A stretch of 64,000 bases of DNA, taken from assembly GCA_030447445.1 (NCBI GenBank), contig JAUJOW010000009.1, positions 1 to 64,000 on the forward strand, given 5' to 3'. The translations under genes and the position numbers were made by a program. This stretch comes from Acidimicrobiales bacterium (GTDB taxonomy: Bacteria; Actinomycetota; Acidimicrobiia; Acidimicrobiales; Iamiaceae). A model generated the notes under the pieces. That model was not told the origin of the DNA. It saw nothing but the letters and a program-made list of their open reading frames with translations, and did not search any database. Position 1 is the first letter of the stretch; the number at the start of each line of letters is the position of its first letter. Positions 6,324 through 47,366 of this stretch are shown here, in pieces.

Positions 6324-7723
6324 CGGCCGGCGGCGGCCGACACCCGGTCGGCGGCCTCCATGCCGCTGCGGATGCAGGCGGGCACGCCCACCCCCCGCAG
6401 GGCGGCGCCAGCCACCACCACCCTGGGGCAGCGGTCGGCGAGGTCGGACTCGACCGCCGCCATCCGGTCGAGGTGGCCGGGGGCGTACTGGGGGAACGAG
6501 TCGGGCCAGCGGGTCACCCGGGTGGCCTCGGGCGGGCCGCGGAGGTCCATGGTCCGGGCAAGGTCCCCGACCACGGCGGCGACCAGGTCGTCGTCGTCGA
6601 GGTCGAGGGCGCGGTCGTCACCGTGGCGTCCGGCTGACGCTCGCAGCAGCACCGTGCCGTCTCCGTGTTGCGGGGCGAGGTGGGCCCACTTGCTGCTGGT
6701 CCACGAGCAGGCCGTGACGGTGGCGGCCTCGCCCCGGGGGACGAGGAAGCCACTGCCGTCGAGGGGCCGACCGAGGTGGACCGGGTCCACGGCAAGGGTC
6801 ACCACGGCGACCGACGCGTGCTCGACGGCGGCGAGGTGCTCGGCGGCGGTGGGTGCGAGCGACGCCAGCAGCGGCGCCATCCCCCAGGCCGGCAGCGCGA
6901 GGACGGCCCCGTCGCCTTCGAGGGTCGTGCCGTCGTCGAGGTCGACGGCGACGCCCTCGTCGCTCCTCGGCTCGAGGGCGACGGCCCGGCGACCGGTGGC
7001 CCACGTCACCTCGGGCATGGCCGCCACCAGGGCGTCCACCAGCCGGCCCATGCCGGCGAGCGGGCTGGCGAAGACGGGCGCGCCGGCGCCGGCCCGCCGC
7101 TGCTGTGCCCGGCAGGCCTCGATGAGGCTGGTGTGGGCCGGGTCGTGGGCGGCGGCGTGGAGCGGGGGGACGACGGCGGCCAGGCTGAGCCGGTGCGTGT
7201 CACCGGCGTTGATGCCGCCGACCAGGGGGTCGACGAGCGCCGCGACCACCTCGGGGCCGAGGCGGCACCCGACCACGGCGGCGATGGTCTCGTCGGTGGC
7301 GTCGTCCTGGTGGTGCGGTCCAGTGGCGGCGGCGTCGAGGTCGCGGCGGGCTCGGTCGAGCCCGGCCGGCGACACCAGGCCGCTGGCGGCGAGCGCGTCG
7401 AGGTCGGTCGGGACCCCCATGAGCTGGGGAGGCAGCGCCCGCAGGGCCCCGTGGCGCCAGATGTAGGCGCGGCCCACAGCCGGATGGGTGAGCTCGCCGT
7501 CGATCCCGAGCGCCCGACACAGATCGGCCGCCCATGGCACCCGCAGCAGGAAGGCGTCGGCGCCTTCGTCGACGGGTCGACCGGCGAACGGCGACGTCCG
7601 CAGCTTGCCCCCTACCCGGTCGTCGGCCTCGACGACGGTGACGGCGGTGGCGGCGCCGGTGAGGCGGTAGGCGGCGGCCAGCCCGGCGATGCCGCCACCC
7701 ACCACGACGACATGGCCGGTCAT
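6320..7723 (-). CDS. hemG: FAD-dependent proto/coproporphyrinogen oxidase
   Basis: A 467-residue flavoprotein of the HemY/HemG family. In actinobacteria this enzyme usually oxidises coproporphyrinogen III to coproporphyrin III in the coproporphyrin-dependent haem route. The N-terminal dinucleotide motif is VVVGGGIAGLAAAYRL, with EADDRVGGKLRT binding FAD, and PVDEGADAFL follows. The C-terminal VVVAGAALRGVGVPACIRSG is the second FAD-contacting segment. It lies in hemE-hemH-hemG with ferrochelatase 7 bp upstream; a five-codon micro-frame (ATGACCGGCCGATGA) tiles that gap. Its stop overlaps the start of lnt. The alternative symbols hemY and cgoX are used for the same family. Confidence 0.9.
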   Translation of the reverse strand: MTGHVVVVGGGIAGLAAAYRLTGAATAVTVVEADDRVGGKLRTSPFAGRPVDEGADAFLLRVPWAADLCRALGIDGELTHPAVGRAYIWRHGALRALPPQLMGVPTDLDALAASGLVSPAGLDRARRDLDAAATGPHHQDDATDETIAAVVGCRLGPEVVAALVDPLVGGINAGDTHRLSLAAVVPPLHAAAHDPAHTSLIEACRAQQRRAGAGAPVFASPLAGMGRLVDALVAAMPEVTWATGRRAVALEPRSDEGVAVDLDDGTTLEGDGAVLALPAWGMAPLLASLAPTAAEHLAAVEHASVAVVTLAVDPVHLGRPLDGSGFLVPRGEAATVTACSWTSSKWAHLAPQHGDGTVLLRASAGRHGDDRALDLDDDDLVAAVVGDLARTMDLRGPPEATRVTRWPDSFPQYAPGHLDRMAAVESDLADRCPRVVVAGAALRGVGVPACIRSGMEAADRVSAAAGR

Positions 7724-7734
7724 CGGCCGGTCAT
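7720..7734 (-). other. Micro-ORF MTGR bridging hemH and hemG
   Basis: ATG ACC GGC CGA TGA begins by overlapping the hemH stop as ATGA, and its own stop overlaps the hemG start as ATGA. The sequence GATGACCGGCC occurs twice in tandem with an 11-bp period, so the micro-frame looks like a tandem duplication of the hemG start site. Confidence 0.4.
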
Positions 7735-8669
7735 CGGTGCGTGGCGGTGACGGCGCCCACCACCCGGTCGGCCAGGGCGGCGAGCACGGGAGGGTGGTCG
7801 TCGATCGACCGGGTGCGGGTGAAGGCCAGCCCGGCCCGCTCGGCCACCTCCTTGGCCTCCACGTCGAGGTCGAACAGCACCTCGAGGTGGTCGGCCACGA
7901 AGCCCTGCGGGCACACGCACACCCCCTCGGCGCGGCCGGTGGCGGCCAGGTCCTCGATGACCGAGAGGATGTCGGGGCCTCGCCAGGATTCGGGGGTCCG
8001 ACCGGCGCTCTGCCACGCCATCGACCATCCCGCCCAGGGCTGGAGCCCGACCCGTTCGGCGACAGCGGCGGCCGACTCGCGCAGCTGGTCGGGGTAGGGG
8101 TCGCCGGCCAGCACCCGCTCAGGGAGGCTGTGGGCGGTGAAGAGCACCTTGTGCCGCTCGGGCAGGCCGGCGCGGGCCTCGGCGACAGCCTTGGCCAGGA
8201 AGTCGAGGAAAGCAGGTTCGCGGTGCCAGCTCTCGATGGCGATCGCCGTCATGTCGAGGGCGGCGGCGGCATCGGCCAGCCGGCGCTGGTACTCGCCCAC
8301 GCTGGCCGCCGAGTAGTGGGGGGCCAGCACGAGGCCGACCACCGAGGCGACGCCGGAGTCGGCCAGGGTGGCGACGGCGTCCTCGATGAAGGGAGCGGCG
8401 TGCTTCTGGCCCAGCACCACCCTCCATCGGCCCGGAGCCCGCTCCTCGAGGGCGGCGGCGATCCCCGCTCGCTGGGCTTCGGTGCGCTCGGCCAGGGGCG
8501 AGGTGCCGCCGATGGCGTCGTAGCGGCGCACGAGGTCGGCGAGCTGCTCGGCGGTGGGCCGTCGACCCCGACGGATGTGGGTGTAGTACGCCTCGACGTC
8601 GCCAGGGGTGGCCGGGGTGCCGTAGGCCATCACCACCACGCCGAGCGCGGCGGCCTCAGAAGAGCTCAC
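7731..8669 (-). CDS. hemH: Ferrochelatase (probably coproporphyrin ferrochelatase)
   Basis: A 312-residue ferrochelatase that inserts Fe2+ into (copro)porphyrin. Family marks are [19 protein letters not shown] at the N-terminus, [11 protein letters not shown], the catalytic-histidine segment [10 protein letters not shown] near residue 181, and the C-terminal [21 protein letters not shown] with the conserved acidic cluster. The GTG start at 8669 overlaps the hemE stop as GTGA. With hemE upstream and the FAD-dependent oxidase downstream, the cluster supplies late haem synthesis. An actinobacterial enzyme of this type normally acts on coproporphyrin III before decarboxylation (CpfC), which is inference here. 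Confidence 0.92.
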
Positions 8670-9753: not shown

Positions 9754-10455
9754 TCAGATCAGCGGCCACGGGTAGCGGCGGCCGCTCGGGTCGACCGGGA
9801 ACGTGCCGGCCCGGAGCAGGCGGAGAGCCCGCACCCCCACCGCGTCGCACTCCTCCGGGGAGAGCAGGTGGCGGAGGAGGGCGGCCAGGTCGGCGTCGAC
9901 GAGCGCGGTGACGGCCTCGACCAGCTCGTCGGGCAACGGCTCGCCGCCGAAGTCCCAGATCACGGTGCGCAGCTTCGGGCCGGGCGCGAAGGACAGCCCG
10001 TTGTCGATGCCCCAGAGGTGCCGATCGGCGTCGATGAGGCAGTGGCCGCTCTTGCGGTCGGTGCTGTTGGCGAGCACGTCGAAGGCGCAGATCCGCCGCA
10101 GTTGGGGATGGGTGGCCTCGTCCTCGAGGAGGGTGAAGTAGTGCTGTTCGAAGTCGGCGTCGATGAAGAGCTGGAGGGAGCCCTCCCCCAGCGGGGCATC
10201 GTCACGGGTGGTCGTGGGCGGCACCATGTCCCAACCGAGGGCGTCGGCCAGCACCCACGCCGCCACCTCCCGCCGGTAGAGACCGGCGGGGAAGTCCCAC
10301 AGCGGCCGCTCGCCCCGGACCGGCTTGTACACCGCTCGGGTGCAGGCGTCGCCCTTGGCCACCTCGACGAGGAAGGTGCCGTTGGAGCTCCACGGCATGC
10401 GCCCGATGACGTCGATCCTGCCGGTGCGGAGCAGGGTGAGCGGTGTCAGGGTCAC
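9754..10455 (-). CDS. SCO1664-family protein (kinase-like/HipA-related fold)
   Basis: A 233-residue protein of the actinobacterial SCO1664 family. Members are distant relatives of PI3/4-kinase-like proteins and none has a known substrate. Recognisable segments are GTFLVEV followed by [16 protein letters not shown] (an ATP-contacting lysine), [36 protein letters not shown] (an HxD-N-like catalytic loop with N and D) and WGIDNGLSF (a DxG-like Asp). The GTG start at 10455 overlaps the DUF3090 stop as GTGA. The set phosphomutase-DUF3090-SCO1664 is conserved in actinobacteria, usually beside mshC; here hemE follows instead. Confidence 0.8.
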
Positions 10456-10988
10456 GCCGGGGGACGGTGCCCGTTGGTGCGGGGACAGGAGTGGTCGGGC
10501 CCCTTCGGGTGCCCGCACAGCCCGCAGGGCGGCCGGCCGGCCTCCACCACCTGACCGGCCCGGGCGATGTAGGCGGCGACCTGAGCTCGGGTGAGCGACA
10601 GGTGGAGGCGGGCCCCGGTGGCCTCACCTTCGTCCCCTGTCTCCTCGCCCTCGGTGTCGATGCGCTCCTCGACCCGCAGCTCGATCCGGTCGGCGGACTC
10701 GTCGTAGCCGATGGCCATGGTGCCTGCCGTCCACGCCGCCATCACCGGTTCGACCAGCTCGGGTGCCGGCGGGGGGTCGGTGATGGGCGGCAGATCGGCC
10801 AGGACGCCGGCCAGGAACTCCGCCAGGCCGGCCACCTGTTGCTTCTCGCACTTCACCGACACCACGGTGCTGCCCGAGGTGGCCTGCAGGTAGAACACCC
10901 GTCGTCCCGGCTCCCCCACCGTGCCGGTGGTGAAGCGGTCGACGTCGGTCAGCTCGAAGGACTCGCTGAACCCACCGGGCTCGCTCAT
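10452..10988 (-). CDS. DUF3090 family protein
   Basis: A 178-residue DUF3090 protein, an actinobacterial family of unknown function. The N-terminal region RFTTGTVGEPGRRVFYLQA is typical, as is KCEKQQVAGLAEFL. The C-terminus ends with a small zinc-ribbon-like motif, CGLCGHPKGPDHSCPRTNG. The start is the ATG at 10988 within an ATGAGCGAGCC cassette that is present three times in tandem (see the micro-ORFs at 10985-11016). The stop overlaps the SCO1664-like start as GTGA, so the pair is translationally coupled. Confidence 0.85.
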   Translation of the reverse strand: MSEPGGFSESFELTDVDRFTTGTVGEPGRRVFYLQATSGSTVVSVKCEKQQVAGLAEFLAGVLADLPPITDPPPAPELVEPVMAAWTAGTMAIGYDESADRIELRVEERIDTEGEETGDEGEATGARLHLSLTRAQVAAYIARAGQVVEAGRPPCGLCGHPKGPDHSCPRTNGHRPPA

Positions 10989-11016
10989 TCGGGCTCGCTC
11001 ATTCGGGCTCGCTCAC
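10985..11016 (-). repeat. Triple 14-bp start-site repeat encoding two micro-ORFs (VSEPE, MSEPE)
   Basis: On the minus strand, TGAGCGAGCCCGAA is repeated with a 14-bp period. GTG at 11016 overlaps the phosphomutase stop (GTGA) and reads VSEPE-stop; that stop overlaps an ATG at 11002 reading MSEPE-stop; that stop overlaps the DUF3090 ATG at 10988. The gap is thus tiled completely by 5-residue frames with 4-nt overlaps. Confidence 0.55.
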
Positions 11017-11657
11017 GAGGCGGTCAGCCCGGCCAGCTCACCGCCGGTCGAGTTGACGGTCAGGACCACCGGTCCGCCGGCGGCGTAGGCCACCGCCGTG
11101 ACCGAGCACGGTGACACCACGATGCGCTGGAACAGGTCGAGGTGGGTGCCGAGGGCCGCCGCGACCGCCGCCTTGATGGGGTCGGCGTGGGACACGCAGA
11201 CGATGGTCTCGCCCCGGTGCCGTCCGCACAGCCGCCCGACGGCGCCGGTGATGCGGGTCTGCATCTCGGCGAAGGACTCGCCGTCGGGGAACCGGAAGCC
11301 GCTCGGGTACTGCTGCACGGTCTTCCACTCCGGCAGCTTGCGCAACGCCTTCAGCTCCGCGCCGGTCCAGGACCCGAAGTCGCACTCGTCCAGCCCGCGC
11401 TCCGTACGGGTGCGGAGGCGGCGGGCCCGGGCGATGGGAGCGGCGGTCTCCCGGGCCCGCTCCAAGGGCGAGGTGTAGACGGCGGCCACCTCCTTCAGCG
11501 CGGCGATGCGCTCGGCGGCGGCGCCGGCCTGGTCGGTGCCGGCGTCGGCGAGGTGGAGCCCCGGCGCCCGACCCGGCAGCGTGGCTCCGGTGGTGGGTGT
11601 CTGGCCGTGGCGCACGTAGAGGACCAAGGTGGGGGCCGGAGGCTTGGAGCGCGCCAT
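11013..11657 (-). CDS. Histidine phosphatase family protein (MSMEG_4193-type phosphomutase)
   Basis: A 214-residue branch-1 histidine phosphatase/phosphoglycerate-mutase-fold protein, probably a phosphatase on an unknown phosphate ester. The catalytic motif LYVRHGQTPTTG is near residues 12-23, with the acid motif ECDFGSWTGAELK and a second catalytic His in VSHADPIKA near residue 155. The ATG at 11657 directly precedes the first strand. It leads the phosphomutase-DUF3090-SCO1664 cluster, and its TGA feeds into two micro-ORFs before DUF3090. It is divergent from the uracil-DNA glycosylase with nearly abutting starts; TAGGTT and TATCGT in this space may serve as opposed -10 boxes. Confidence 0.85.
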   Translation of the reverse strand: MARSKPPAPTLVLYVRHGQTPTTGATLPGRAPGLHLADAGTDQAGAAAERIAALKEVAAVYTSPLERARETAAPIARARRLRTRTERGLDECDFGSWTGAELKALRKLPEWKTVQQYPSGFRFPDGESFAEMQTRITGAVGRLCGRHRGETIVCVSHADPIKAAVAAALGTHLDLFQRIVVSPCSVTAVAYAAGGPVVLTVNSTGGELAGLTAS

Positions 11658-11679
11658 GAGAGCGGCCAACCTATCGTCG

Positions 11680-12348
11680 ATGGTCGATTCCTTGGCCCGG
11701 GTGGAGGCCGACGTGATCGGGTGCCGGGCCTGTCCGAGGTTGGTGGCCTGGCGGGAGCAGGTCGGCCGGGACAAGCGGGCCGCCTTCCGCGACGAGGACT
11801 ACTGGGCCAAGCCCGTACCGAGCTTCGGGGATCCCGCCGCCCACCTGGTCATCGTCGGGCTCGCCCCCGCCGCCCACGGCGGCAACCGGACGGGCCGCAT
11901 CTTCACCGGCGACCGCTCAGGCGACTTCCTGTACGCCGCGCTGCACCGGGCCGGCTACGCCAACCAGCCGACGAGCCGGCACCGGGGTGACGGGCTGGTG
12001 CTCACCGGGGCGTGGATCACGGCGCCGGTCCACTGCGCCCCGCCCGCCAACCAGCCGACCCCAGCCGAACGCGACGCCTGCGGCGTCTACCTCGAGCGGG
12101 AGCTGGCCCTGCTCAGCGGGGTGCGGGTGGTGCTCGTGCTCGGCGGGTTCGCCTACCAGGTGATGGCCGGCCTGCTCGGGGCCCGACCCCGCCCGCGGTT
12201 CGCCCATGGCCTGGAGGTCCCAGCGCCGGACGGGCGCACCATCGTGTGCTCCTACCACGTGAGCCAGCAGAACACCTTCACCGGCACGCTCACCCCGGCG
12301 ATGCTCGACGCCGTGCTCTCCCGAGCCCGGGCCCTCGGCACGGCCTGA
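11680..12348 (+). CDS. Family 5 uracil-DNA glycosylase (UdgB-like), 4Fe-4S
   Basis: A 222-residue base-excision repair glycosylase that removes uracil (and often hypoxanthine) from DNA. Family-5 motif A is GLAPAAHGGNRTGRIFTGD, with Ala rather than the Asp of families 1 and 4, and motif B is HVSQQNTFTGTLT. Cys15, Cys18, Cys118 and Cys134 can ligate a 4Fe-4S cluster. I start at the ATG at 11680; an ATG at 11656 adds eight residues and overlaps the divergent gene. It is a single gene on the plus strand among minus-strand neighbours. Confidence 0.9.
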   Translation: MVDSLARVEADVIGCRACPRLVAWREQVGRDKRAAFRDEDYWAKPVPSFGDPAAHLVIVGLAPAAHGGNRTGRIFTGDRSGDFLYAALHRAGYANQPTSRHRGDGLVLTGAWITAPVHCAPPANQPTPAERDACGVYLERELALLSGVRVVLVLGGFAYQVMAGLLGARPRPRFAHGLEVPAPDGRTIVCSYHVSQQNTFTGTLTPAMLDAVLSRARALGTA

Positions 12349-30481: not shown

Positions 30482-31762
30482 GTGGACGGGTCGGTGGTGC
30501 GGGTTGGTGTGCTGGGGTGCGGCAACGTGGGCGCCGCGCTCGTCGAGCTGTTGCGCACCCAGGGCGACGAGATCGGTGCCCGCACCGGTGTGCGCATCGA
30601 GGTGGTGCGGGTGGCCGTGCGCAGCCTGTCCCGGGAGCGGCCGGTGGTGCTGCCCGAGGACGTGCTGACCAACGACGCCGCCGCCGTCGTGGCCGACCCC
30701 TCGGTCGACGTGATCGTCGAGGTGATCGGCGGCATCGAACCGGCCCGCGAGCTGATCACCGCCGCCCTGAAGTCCGGCAAGCCCGTGGTCACGGCCAACA
30801 AGGAGCTGCTGGCCAACGTCGGTGCCGAGCTGTTCGAGGTGGCCGAAGCGGCCGGGGTGGACCTGCTGTTCGAGGCAGCCGTGGCCGGGGGGGTCCCCTT
30901 CATCCGCCCGCTGCGGGAGTCGCTGGTGGGGGAGCGCATCCACCGGGTGATCGGCATCGTGAACGGCACCACCAACTACATCCTCACCCGCATGACCGAG
31001 GACGGCGTGTCGTACCAGGCCGCCCTCGCCGAGGCCCAGAGCCTCGGCTACGCCGAGCGCGACCCCACCGCCGACGTCGAGGGCTACGACGCCGGGGCGA
31101 AGGCCGCCATCATCGCCTCCATCGCCTTCGGCGTGCGGGTGGTGGCCGGCGACGTGTACCACGAGGGCATCTCCGGGCTCACCCCCGCCGACATCGGTTT
31201 CGCCACCCGGCTCGGCTACGTGGTCAAGCTGCTGGCCGTGGCCGAGCTCATCGACGGAGAGGTCGGCGTGCGAGTCCACCCGGCCATGGTCCCGGCCACC
31301 CACCCCCTGGCCAGCGTGCGCGACAGCTACAACGCCCTCTTCGTCGAGGGCGAGTCGGTGGGCAACCTCATGTTCTACGGGCGGGGAGCGGGAGGCCGGC
31401 CCACGGCCAGCGCCGTGCTGGGCGACCTCATCGACGCCGCCGGCAACCTCCGCCGGGGGGCGCACGCCACCATCGGGTCCCTGACCAAGGCCCGCATCCG
31501 ACCCGTCGACGACGCCACCTCCGAGTACTACCTGAACGTCGAGGTGGCCGACCGCCCCGGCGTGCTGGCCGCCGTGGCCGGAGCGTTCGGGCGCCACGGC
31601 GTGTCCATCCGGGCCATGGAGCAGGAGGGCCTGGGGGACGAGGCTCGCATCGTGTTCATCACCCACACCGCCCGTGAGGCCGACATGGCCGCCACGTTGG
31701 CCGGGCTGCGAGAGCTCGACGCCGTCGACCGGGTGGTGTCCCTCCTCCGGGTCGTCTCGTGA
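30482..31762 (+). CDS. hom: Homoserine dehydrogenase with C-terminal ACT domain
   Basis: A 426-residue NAD(P)-dependent enzyme reducing aspartate semialdehyde to homoserine. The nucleotide-binding loop is VGVLGCGNVGAALV, followed by VTANKELLA, EAAVAGGVPFIRPL, GIVNGTTNYILT and GYAERDPTADVEGYDAGAKAAI, all family signatures. A regulatory ACT domain (LNVEVADRPGVLAAVAGAFG) begins near residue 348 and probably gives feedback inhibition by threonine. The GTG at 30482 has a -10 box 6 nt upstream. thrC follows after a 10-nt gap tiled by a micro-ORF. Confidence 0.95.
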   Translation: MDGSVVRVGVLGCGNVGAALVELLRTQGDEIGARTGVRIEVVRVAVRSLSRERPVVLPEDVLTNDAAAVVADPSVDVIVEVIGGIEPARELITAALKSGKPVVTANKELLANVGAELFEVAEAAGVDLLFEAAVAGGVPFIRPLRESLVGERIHRVIGIVNGTTNYILTRMTEDGVSYQAALAEAQSLGYAERDPTADVEGYDAGAKAAIIASIAFGVRVVAGDVYHEGISGLTPADIGFATRLGYVVKLLAVAELIDGEVGVRVHPAMVPATHPLASVRDSYNALFVEGESVGNLMFYGRGAGGRPTASAVLGDLIDAAGNLRRGAHATIGSLTKARIRPVDDATSEYYLNVEVADRPGVLAAVAGAFGRHGVSIRAMEQEGLGDEARIVFITHTAREADMAATLAGLRELDAVDRVVSLLRVVS

Positions 31763-31776
31763 AGGTTCGGCTGTGA
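31759..31776 (+). other. Micro-ORF VKVRL bridging hom and thrC
   Basis: GTG AAG GTT CGG CTG TGA overlaps the hom stop as GTGA, and its stop overlaps the thrC GTG as GTGA. GTGAAG occurs at both ends, 14 bp apart, the same period as in the DUF3090 repeat. Confidence 0.4.
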
Positions 31777-34835: not shown

Positions 34836-35135
34836 GCGCGGCACTGAAGTAGGGAGCCGACAGCCTCGGGCCGGCTTGAGCCCGTCGTCGGCGGGGTGGC
34901 TACACTGAGGCCCTCCCCAGCGAGTCGGTGACCGATCGCTGCGGAGCACCTGACGGGGTTTCCCTCCACGCCGATCGGCTGCGCACCGTCTGCGCGCGCC
35001 GGGACCCCGAGGCTCGCACCCCGATTGAAGCGAGGTAGCACCGTTGAGTGAGCCGCAGGCGAGCGAACCAGAAGGAACGGCGGCGGTTCGCCCCGTAGGG
35101 GCGAGGCTCATCGGCGCGGACCGAAGGGAGCACCG
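34836..35135 (+). other. rho leader region (300 bp)
   Basis: There is no full-size gene. It holds a candidate sigma70-type promoter (34876-34906), a GC-rich stretch, and from 35044 a 31-codon mini-ORF coinciding with a structured repeat that ends at the rho start codon. Long leaders are common for rho genes, which are often autoregulated. Confidence 0.5.
34876..34906 (+). promoter_or_regulatory. rho: Candidate promoter of rho (TTGAGC-N19-TACACT)
   Basis: TTGAGC (34876-34881) and TACACT (34901-34906), separated by 19 nt, make a reasonable -35/-10 pair. This would give a leader of about 220 nt before the rho ATG. Confidence 0.4.
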
Positions 35136-35139
35136 ATGA
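35044..35139 (+). repeat. SEP-type structured repeat / 31-codon mini-ORF ending at the rho start
   Basis: From a TTG at 35044 the frame reads LSEPQASEPEGTAAV through RREHR, and its TGA overlaps the rho ATG as ATGA. At DNA level GAGCCGCAGGCGAGCGAACC is shared with the junctions at 45433 and 45561. A CGCCCC-GTA-GGGGCG hairpin (35089-35103) follows. Then CTCATCGG (35107-35114) pairs perfectly with CCGATGAG (35133-35140), placing the rho ATG inside a stem. Confidence 0.5.
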
Positions 35140-44869: not shown

Positions 44870-45436
44870 ATCGAGATCCTCTTCCTGTGCACCGGCAACA
44901 TCTGCCGCTCCCCGATGGCCGAGGCTCTCCTTCGCCACCGCATGGAGCAACTGGGCGTGGTGGCCACCGTGTACTCGGCCGGCCTCCTGTACGACGACGC
45001 GCCGCCCTCGGCCGGTGCGGTGGAGGTCCTCGAGCGTCGGGGTGTCGACCTCAGCGCGCACCGCAGCCGCATCATGCGGCCCGACGAGGTGGCCACGGCC
45101 GACCTCGTGCTGGCCATGGCCCGCATGCACCTGCGGGAGGCCGTGGTCATGGTCCCGAGGCGGTTCGGCCACATCTTCACGCTGAAGGAGCTCGTGCGCC
45201 GGGCCGAGCAGGTCGGCCCCCGTGTCGAGGAGTCCTTCGAGGACTGGCTCGCCCGAGTCGGGTTCGGTCGCCGCACGGTGGAGTTCCTCGGCGAGTCACC
45301 CGAGGACGACATCGCCGACCCGATCGGCCAGTCGGTGGCCACCTACGACCGCACCGCCGCCGAGCTCGACGACCTCGTGGCCCGCCTCTGCGCCCTCGTG
45401 TGGAGCCGGGCTGCTCGGGAGGTGCGCCACGCATGA
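44870..45436 (+). CDS. Low-molecular-weight protein-tyrosine phosphatase, apparent ATC start
   Basis: A ~188-residue LMW-PTP that dephosphorylates phosphotyrosine or phosphoarginine-like substrates. The P-loop LFLCTGNICRSPMAEALL has Cys7 and Arg13, and the general-acid DPIGQSVATYDRTAAELD is at the C-terminus. No ATG, GTG or TTG precedes the P-loop in frame; the conserved sequence begins at ATC (44870), which lies 7 nt after a TACAAT box, the typical leaderless spacing. A start at the later ATG (44915) would remove the P-loop. Either AUC initiates or there is a base error. Its stop overlaps a mini-ORF leading to rpiB. Confidence 0.8.
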   Translation: MEILFLCTGNICRSPMAEALLRHRMEQLGVVATVYSAGLLYDDAPPSAGAVEVLERRGVDLSAHRSRIMRPDEVATADLVLAMARMHLREAVVMVPRRFGHIFTLKELVRRAEQVGPRVEESFEDWLARVGFGRRTVEFLGESPEDDIADPIGQSVATYDRTAAELDDLVARLCALVWSRAAREVRHA

Positions 45437-45564
45437 GCGAGCCGGCAGGGCGAGCGAACCAGACAGAACGGGTGGTCTCGCCGCGAAGCGGCGAGCGCTC
45501 ATTGGTGCCACCTCGATCTGACGAGACGGGGCGTGGACTCACAAGGCGGAGGGTGCACCAATGA
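45433..45564 (+). CDS. 43-residue mini-ORF within the SEP-type repeat (phosphatase-rpiB junction)
   Basis: ATG at 45433 overlaps the phosphatase stop as ATGA. The frame reads MSEPAGRANQTERVVSPRSG, and on to TRRRVHQ, and ends by overlapping the next ATG at 45561. It is Arg-rich and low in hydrophobics. At DNA level it resembles the element before rho: a conserved core, a CTCGCCGC-GAA-GCGGCGAG hairpin (45477-45495), then GCTCATTGGTGC (45497-45508) paired to GCACCAATGAGC (45555-45566). The two encoded peptides differ in frame, so the DNA or RNA structure rather than the peptide is conserved. Confidence 0.4.
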   Translation: MSEPAGRANQTERVVSPRSGERSLVPPRSDETGRGLTRRRVHQ

Positions 45565-45605
45565 GCGAGCCGCAGGCGAGCGAAGCAGACGGTGTGCGCC
45601 GGTGA
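45561..45605 (+). other. 14-residue mini-[17 protein letters not shown] before rpiB
   Basis: ATG at 45561 overlaps the stop of the 43-residue frame, and its TGA overlaps the rpiB GTG at 45602 as GTGA. Its first 30 nt repeat the SEP core (25 of 27 bases match the copy before rho). Its ATG lies in the right arm of the 12-bp inverted repeat. Confidence 0.4.
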
Positions 45606-46072: not shown

Positions 46073-47325
46073 TGACCACCTGGCCGACGGAGCGGGACCA
46101 CGAGGTCTTCGCCATCATCGACGCAGAACGGGACCGGCAGAACACGACCCTCCAGCTCATCGCCTCGGAGAACTTCGCCTCGCCGGCCGTGCTCGAGGCC
46201 ACCGGGTCGGTCCTCACCAACAAGTACAGCGAGGGCTACCCGGGCCGGCGCTACTACGGGGGCAACGAGGTCATCGACCAGGCCGAGGAGCTGGCCCGCC
46301 AGCGGGCCTGCGCCCTGTTCGGCGCCGAGCACGCCAACGTGCAACCCCACTCCGGCGCCCAGGCCAACATGGCCGCCTACCTCGGCCTGCTCGACCCCGG
46401 CGACACGATCCTGGCGCTGCGCCTCGACCAGGGCGGGCACCTGACCCACGGCTCACCGGTCAGCGCCAGCAGCACCTTCTACCGGTTCGTCCACTACGGG
46501 GTGACCCCGTCCGACGAGCGGATCGACTTCGACCAGGTCCGCGACCTCGCCGCCGAGCACCGACCCAGGATGATCGTGGCCGGGGCCACCGCCTACCCCC
46601 GGGTGCTGGCCCCCGAACCGTTCCGCGTCATCGCCGACGAGGTCGGCGCCCTGTTCATGTTCGACGCCGCCCACGTGGCCGGCCTCGTCGCCGGCGGCGC
46701 CCACCCCAACCCGGTGCCCCACGCCGACGTCGTCACCCTCACCACCCACAAGACCCTCCGAGGGCCACGGGGCGGCTGCATCCTGTCCCGGGCCGAGCAC
46801 GCCGCCGCCATCGACAAGGCCGTGTTCCCGGGGTCACAGGGCGGCCCGCTCGACCACGTGGTCGCCGCCAAGGCGGTGGCCTTCGGGGAGGCGGCCCGGG
46901 CCGAGTTCGCCGACTACGCCGCCCAGGTCGTCGCCAACGCCGCCGCCCTGGCCGAGGCCCTCGTCGGTCACGGCCTCCGGCTCGTGTCGGGCGGCACCGA
47001 CAACCACCTCATGCTGGTCGACCTGCGCCCGCTCGACCCGGACCTCTCGGGGAAGAAGGCCCGCCTCGCGCTCGACCGGGCCGGCATCAGCCTCAACGAG
47101 AACACGGTGCCCGGCGATCCCCGTCCGCCGTACATCACGAGCGGGCTGCGCATCGGCACGCCGGCGGTGACCACCCAGGGCATGCGGGAGCGCGAGATGC
47201 GCGAGATCGCCTTCCAGATCCACCGGGTGCTCACGAGCATCGGCGACGACGCCGAGCTGGCCGCCGCCCGCGACGACGTCGTCACGCTCTGCTCCAAGTT
47301 CGCGCCGTACGCTGCTGGGGCGTGA
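46072..47325 (+). CDS. glyA: Serine hydroxymethyltransferase
   Basis: A 417-residue PLP enzyme (fold type I) interconverting serine and glycine with tetrahydrofolate. It has [62 protein letters not shown] and the PLP-lysine segment [19 protein letters not shown] (Lys about 227). The C-terminal [16 protein letters not shown] is conserved. The rpiB TGA and the glyA ATG share one base (TGATG). A 14-residue mini-ORF bridges to wecA. The one-carbon units produced feed purine and methionine synthesis. Confidence 0.96.
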
Positions 47326-47366
47326 CGCCTCTGACGCCTCTGACGCCGCTGCCGACGAGCGCCTGA
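47322..47366 (+). other. 14-residue mini-[17 protein letters not shown] bridging glyA and wecA
   Basis: GTG at 47322 overlaps the glyA stop (GTGA). The frame is made of three near-copies of the 9-bp unit CTGACGCCT and ends TGATG, sharing one base with the wecA ATG. No Shine-Dalgarno is needed if ribosomes reinitiate stepwise. Confidence 0.4.

Follow-up and report, generated by a model that had tools for sequence, protein, structure and literature searches.

A tandemly repeated start-site cassette ahead of a DUF3090 gene as a candidate translational relay in Acidimicrobiia

The window analysed here is a stretch of 64,000 nucleotides from an Acidimicrobiales bacterium (contig JAUJOW010000009.1). 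On its minus strand it encodes a protein of the histidine phosphatase superfamily (branch 1; 11013..11774; PF00300 His_Phos_1, E 8e-47), for which the start called at about 11657 is more likely than one at 11774, followed by a DUF3090 protein (10452..10988; PF11290, E 1e-36), whose gene starts MSEPGGFSESFEL and overlaps the next gene at its 3' end by a GTGA. Read on the minus strand, the junction between phosphatase and DUF3090 is TCG-TGAGCGAGCCCGAA-TGAGCGAGCCCGAA-TGAGCGAGCCCG-GTGGG. The phosphatase gene ends in TCG TGA, and this stop (11015-11013) overlaps a GTG at 11016, which opens the micro-ORF GTG AGC GAG CCC GAA TGA (VSEPE*, 10999..11016, minus strand). A second micro-ORF, ATG AGC GAG CCC GAA TGA (MSEPE*, 10985..11002, minus strand), comes next, and an ATGA joins it to the ATG of DUF3090 at 10988, which reads ATG AGC GAG CCC GGT in frame. 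Phosphatase, VSEPE*, MSEPE* and DUF3090 are thus linked by GTGA/ATGA/ATGA, exactly as the original prediction had described for these two five-codon frames, and every step is a stop/start overlap of 4 nt, the overlap expected both of termination-reinitiation and of mycobacterial interspersed repetitive units (MIRU). Between the phosphatase stop and the DUF3090 start there are 27 bases; the two relay steps plus the native overlap amount to a frame shift of three bases, so that DUF3090 is back in the phosphatase frame.

The micro-ORFs lie in a tandem array of TGAGCGAGCCCGAA (10976..11015, minus strand), to which Tandem Repeats Finder assigns a period of 14, 2.9 copies, 100% matches and a score of 80, the second highest in the window. 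Full copies occupy 11015-11002 and 11001-10988. This array had been described as a triplicated 14-bp cassette, and the tandem repeat is indeed exact, but the third copy comprises only 12 of the 14 bases (10987-10976). The period had also been derived from a five-codon frame with 4-nt overlaps; such a frame does produce the linkage, but 14 is not special, as any period of 3n+2 that carries NTGA ends each copy on the next start. The two-copy string has no second site in the 3.07-Mb genome at up to three mismatches. The proposed comparison of cassette copy number among related genomes found nothing to compare: the TGAGCGAGCCCGAA repeat occurs in no relative examined, and the array only in its own genome. 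This genome (86% complete, 37 contigs), whose size and gaps suggest a metagenome-assembled origin, is the sole member of its genus that was compared, within a family of 24 genomes.

A total of 189 distinct phosphatase-DUF3090 junctions from related Acidimicrobiia were classified according to the phosphatase stop and the DUF3090 start. In 81 of them the stop forms an NTGA that shares the DUF3090 frame and could serve as the start of that gene, in two the genes overlap directly by 8 nt, in 51 the stop is not NTGA (the controls), and in the remaining 55 an NTGA stop is followed by a DUF3090 start 4-150 nt downstream. Relative to the NTG, the start of DUF3090 in these 55 junctions is in the relay phase in 41 cases, in the other phase in 11 and in frame in three, while the corresponding numbers are 15, 17 and 19 for the 51 controls, and 4, 11 and 11 for the 26 junctions with TAA or TAG stops alone. 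The ratio of relay to other phase (41:11 after NTGA vs 4:11 after TAA/TAG) differs with P 3e-4. When each genus is counted once, which partially corrects for shared ancestry, 39 of 52 are in the relay phase (P about 1e-9 against 1/3).

In 53 of the 55 junctions, the frame that begins at NTGA closes over the DUF3090 start, the overlap being 4, 1 or 8 nt, and the two exceptions belong to one AT-rich lineage (L041/L062); under the same frame-walking rules, only 11 of 38 out-of-frame controls succeed (P 2e-12). All 41 relay-phase junctions hold a single micro-ORF of 2-26 codons, which ends on the DUF3090 start by ATGA/GTGA or, in L029, L030 and L151, by TGATG. Six of the 11 other-phase junctions are chains of two relays, of 5 and 5 codons in the window, 9 and 3 in L008, 6 and 6 in L091, 23 and 28 in L100, 25 and 25 in L103, and 5 and 31 in L106. 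In the other five, the frame ends inside ATGNNTGA with an 8-nt overlap; the 8-nt overlaps of L033 and L092 were read from the sequence, the frame-walking script having missed both. L098, although in frame (phase 0), holds a chain of three relays, bringing the multi-relay chains to seven. The genome that carries it (G043) has two DUF3090 copies, one of which is reached through this chain and its 16-bp tandem repeat. Relay peptides differ from genus to genus, whereas the phase is kept. Motifs resembling a Shine-Dalgarno sequence precede 23 of 53 relay starts by a loose test, so that direct initiation may contribute at those sites. In Actinomycetes whose DUF3090 has a separate leader (L244, L247, L248, L250), the NTGA frames contain no relay.

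Further high-scoring tandem arrays lie at the phosphatase-DUF3090 junction of other genomes. Together with the 14 bp of the window, their periods are 17 (L091, three copies), 17 (L181), 38 (L136) and 74 (L103), all of the form 3n+2; in L098, with period 16, the first frame runs past one copy to reach its stop on the third (2x16=32). The relay peptide of L136, MSASFDLNDLEPS, consists of a copied DUF3090 N-terminus joined to the phosphatase C-terminus, and sister genomes of the same genus show a direct overlap at this junction, which is, at the level of sequence, direct evidence for the birth of a relay by tandem duplication. For the array of the window, tandem duplication, as originally proposed, is shown by its perfect repeats, although the duplicated unit may descend from a MIRU-like repeat (see below) rather than from the native start.

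The same rule was examined at other junctions in four genomes of the order (G014, G016, G028 and that of the window), 864 kb in total. These genome-wide counts rest on gene calls by a simple caller of our own, based on a six-frame margin model; a first caller was dropped because, at 74% GC, it mistook antisense frames for genes, and its test, which had shown no enrichment, was discarded. Where the next start lies 3-120 nt away, exact relays were found in 25 of 40 junctions after NTGA versus one of 37 after TAA/TAG (P 7e-9), with an intermediate frequency after CTGA (26/140). CTGA was split from TAA/TAG after the data were seen and kept apart because CTG may itself serve as a start; with all non-NTGA stops pooled, the contrast is 25/40 against 27/177 (P 5e-9), while phase alone is not significant genome-wide against the same pool (P 0.07). 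All ten ATGA junctions with spacings of 13-120 nt are relays. Enrichment was weak in two Actinomycetes genomes (5/17 vs 6/56). The intermediate frequency after CTGA may reflect occasional use of CTG as a start. The junction between DUF3090 and the SCO1664-family gene provides only six NTGA cases with a downstream start, too few for the rule. In 16 junctions of this kind (e.g., L066, L069, L075, L084), the downstream frame and the DUF3090 stop share a CTGA, and no ATG, GTG or TTG start is present within 30 nt upstream or ahead of the conserved region. This arrangement suggests CTG starts at 4-nt overlaps, with starts farther upstream inside DUF3090 as another possibility.

Several of the relatives' relays at the phosphatase-DUF3090 junction share a head, NTGAGCGAGCCGNAGGCGAGCGAA, which is dispersed, with 19 copies in the genome of the window, 33 in G047 and 24 in G291, while the reversed head pattern gave no copies in any genome searched. 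In the genome of the window, the full unit measures 92 bp, and in nine copies compared, 72 of 96 columns are invariant; each of the nine has its end on an RTGA start, encodes a relay of 31 codons and overlaps the flanking start by 4 nt. Searching with the consensus gave at least 17 matches in this genome, some full and some partial, and one weak match in each of two other members of the family. The elements are exemplified by loci L305-L316, L323 and L324, with tandem copies in L310, L323 and L324; tandem copies are spaced by 92 bp in this genome and by 77 or 74 in other genera. These spacings are all 3n+2, the occasional exceptions being 76 (G291) and 78 (G047). Shortened units of 14 codons (at 45561 in the window) and 10 codons exist, L312 among them, as do head-only fusions (L305, L318), and elements of this MIRU-like type occupy the phosphatase-DUF3090 junction itself in other genera (L065, L099, L103, L106, L121). 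Rfam has no match to the repeat. A Y1 transposase, of the kind that moves REP elements, was rejected as the mover: no PF01797 (Y1_Tnp) match was found in this genome (86% complete), whereas there were hits in 5 of 14 controls.

Two sites with this repeat lie on the plus strand of the window. A full copy (35044..35139) ends its 31-codon relay on the ATGA start, at 35136, of a gene that is called Rho-like from its translation rather than from a family search; in this copy the head does not coincide with a gene stop. Two diverged tandem units (45433..45605), with relays of 43 and 14 codons, connect a low-molecular-weight phosphatase gene with rpiB (start 45602) through an ATGA/ATGA/GTGA chain. 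The closest relative offers the empty site (L345), a direct GTGA overlap at rpiB where the genome of the window carries the two units; this site was probably coupled before the insertion and would still be coupled via two relays.

In our main reading, held with a probability of about 0.78, the cassette is a two-step translational relay operating by termination-reinitiation and derived from tandem duplication of a coupled start site. A ribosome that ends the phosphatase at its TGA would restart on the overlapping GTG and make VSEPE, stop and restart on the overlapping ATG to make MSEPE, and stop once more to restart on the ATG of DUF3090. The pentapeptides would need no function of their own. 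The array would have grown by duplication in units of 3n+2 bases. The copied segment would have been the native DUF3090 start (MSE...) or, alternatively, the head of the MIRU-like family, in which case the cassette could stand at the far end of a shortening series of the element. The sequences themselves show how the junction is built, the constraint on phase among relatives, the repeat family and one empty site; we infer that the micro-ORFs are in fact translated, and in what order the events took place. The original prediction that the micro-ORFs still hand on ribosomes is backed by the relay phase, which is kept in unrelated sequences of about 50 genera but not after TAA/TAG.

The proposed mechanism has precedents. 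Overlaps of -4, -1 and -8 are the commonest coupling overlaps, and a gap of about 20 nt nearly abolishes coupling (PMC10666635). Since reinitiation succeeds where stop and start overlap but not across longer gaps, insertions would be retained only if every stop falls on the next start. The overlapping pairs studied by Huber et al. in 2019 and 2023 (PMC6728339, PMC10666635) show the same overlaps as here but overlap directly, whereas the micro-ORFs described here bridge 4-150 nt with every step overlapping. In mycobacteria, small ORFs are coupled by RTGA, and the linkage is conserved more than the peptide (Shell et al. 2015, PMC4633059). They share with the present relays the RTGA tetramer to the next gene and the unconserved peptide; however, they lie at the 5' ends of leaderless transcripts and load ribosomes, while the relays would pass them on between genes, sometimes in chains. 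In Mycobacterium tuberculosis, a small ORF overlapping PPE2 by AUGA (uPPE2) is needed for the downstream gene, mainly through termination-reinitiation (PMC11260477), but it is part of a leader controlled by a B12 riboswitch, whereas the relay of the window lies between two genes. MIRU (Supply et al. 1997), according to PMC12548453, insert at start codons with an ORF coupled by a -4 overlap, and, going by the layout given there, the dispersed 92-bp element appears to resemble them closely. It is found in another bacterial class, with a unit of 92 bp (77 or 74 in other genera), and the cassette of the window departs further, as it is 14 bp long, has five-codon relays, sits at one locus and is not itself dispersed.

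A variant that keeps the relay function and changes its origin regards the cassette as a minimal deletion derivative of the 92-bp element, in which the head NTGAGCGAGCC became fused to the tail CCG/ATGA before tandem amplification. We give this variant somewhat less than an even chance. VSEPE and MSEPE equal what codons 1 to 5 of the element ORF (VSEPEASEPEG) would yield, and the abundance of full and partial copies in the genome, the shortened and head-only forms, and the elements at the same junction in other genera are all in its favour. On the other hand, DUF3090 genes of relatives already begin with ATGAGCGAG (MSES...), so that most of the match to the element may be native, and codon 4 is CCG in nearly all listed element heads but CCC in the cassette.

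The other alternatives dispense with the hand-over of ribosomes or with the array itself. The array might be neutral tandem slippage, with DUF3090 initiated directly on its ATG and the micro-ORFs irrelevant; slippage is common, and the array is unique to its own genome among those searched. Neutral arrays would nevertheless be expected in all three phases, whereas it is only after NTGA stops that the relay phase prevails, and the array periods are nearly all 3n+2, which makes this explanation unlikely. Slightly less probable still is that selection merely removes out-of-frame translation into DUF3090: this would also predict a stop before or near the start, but any upstream stop would be enough, and yet in 53 of 55 junctions the stop falls right on the start. 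An assembly artefact, with a single copy in the true genome, is conceivable in a fragmented and incomplete assembly. It is nonetheless very improbable, given that an array of 40 bp is short enough for single reads to span and that other genomes (L091, L098, L103, L136) have independent arrays, of different sequence, at this junction, which makes an assembly error less likely. Least credible of all is readthrough of the TGA to give a phosphatase-DUF3090 fusion; the frames do match after two relays, with 27 bases from stop to start, but any chain of two relays returns to the upstream frame, and readthrough is not needed as an extra cause, and nothing else in the locus points to it.

Selection for termination-reinitiation apparently fits the pattern across relatives best. 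Unrelated insertions show a constraint on phase only where the upstream stop itself supplies a start (NTGA), and this is sequence-level evidence that reinitiation at overlaps is in use and selected for in this bacterial class, for which there is almost no genetics. A broader proposal, which we put at close to even odds, is that Acidimicrobiia have MIRU-like mobile repeats of 92, 77 or 74 bp, together with deletion derivatives as short as 14 bp, which insert at coupled starts and bring a built-in relay ORF, and that class-wide selection keeps the chains in phase, so that many intergenic gaps of 10-150 nt that pass for uncoupled would be coupled through unannotated micro-ORFs. For translational coupling, the junction is a natural experiment. 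The relay constraint shows how coupled sites tolerate insertions and repeats and explains the repeat periods of 3n+2, and relays of this size are missed both by surveys of gene distance and by gene finders.

Three additional putative relays were found in the window. On the minus strand, MTGR* (7720..7734) joins a ferrochelatase gene (ending at 7731) to a gene for an amine oxidase/FAD oxidoreductase (starting at 7723), and is carried by the second tandem start/stop cassette of the window, with an 11-bp unit, ATGACCGGCCG (7714-7737). On the plus strand, VKVRL* (31759..31776) leads from homoserine dehydrogenase to threonine synthase by GTGA...GTGA, and a relay of 14 residues (47322..47366) leads from serine hydroxymethyltransferase to a glycosyltransferase family 4 gene by GTGA...TGATG. 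The latter relay encloses an in-frame 9-bp repeat, TGACGCCTC.
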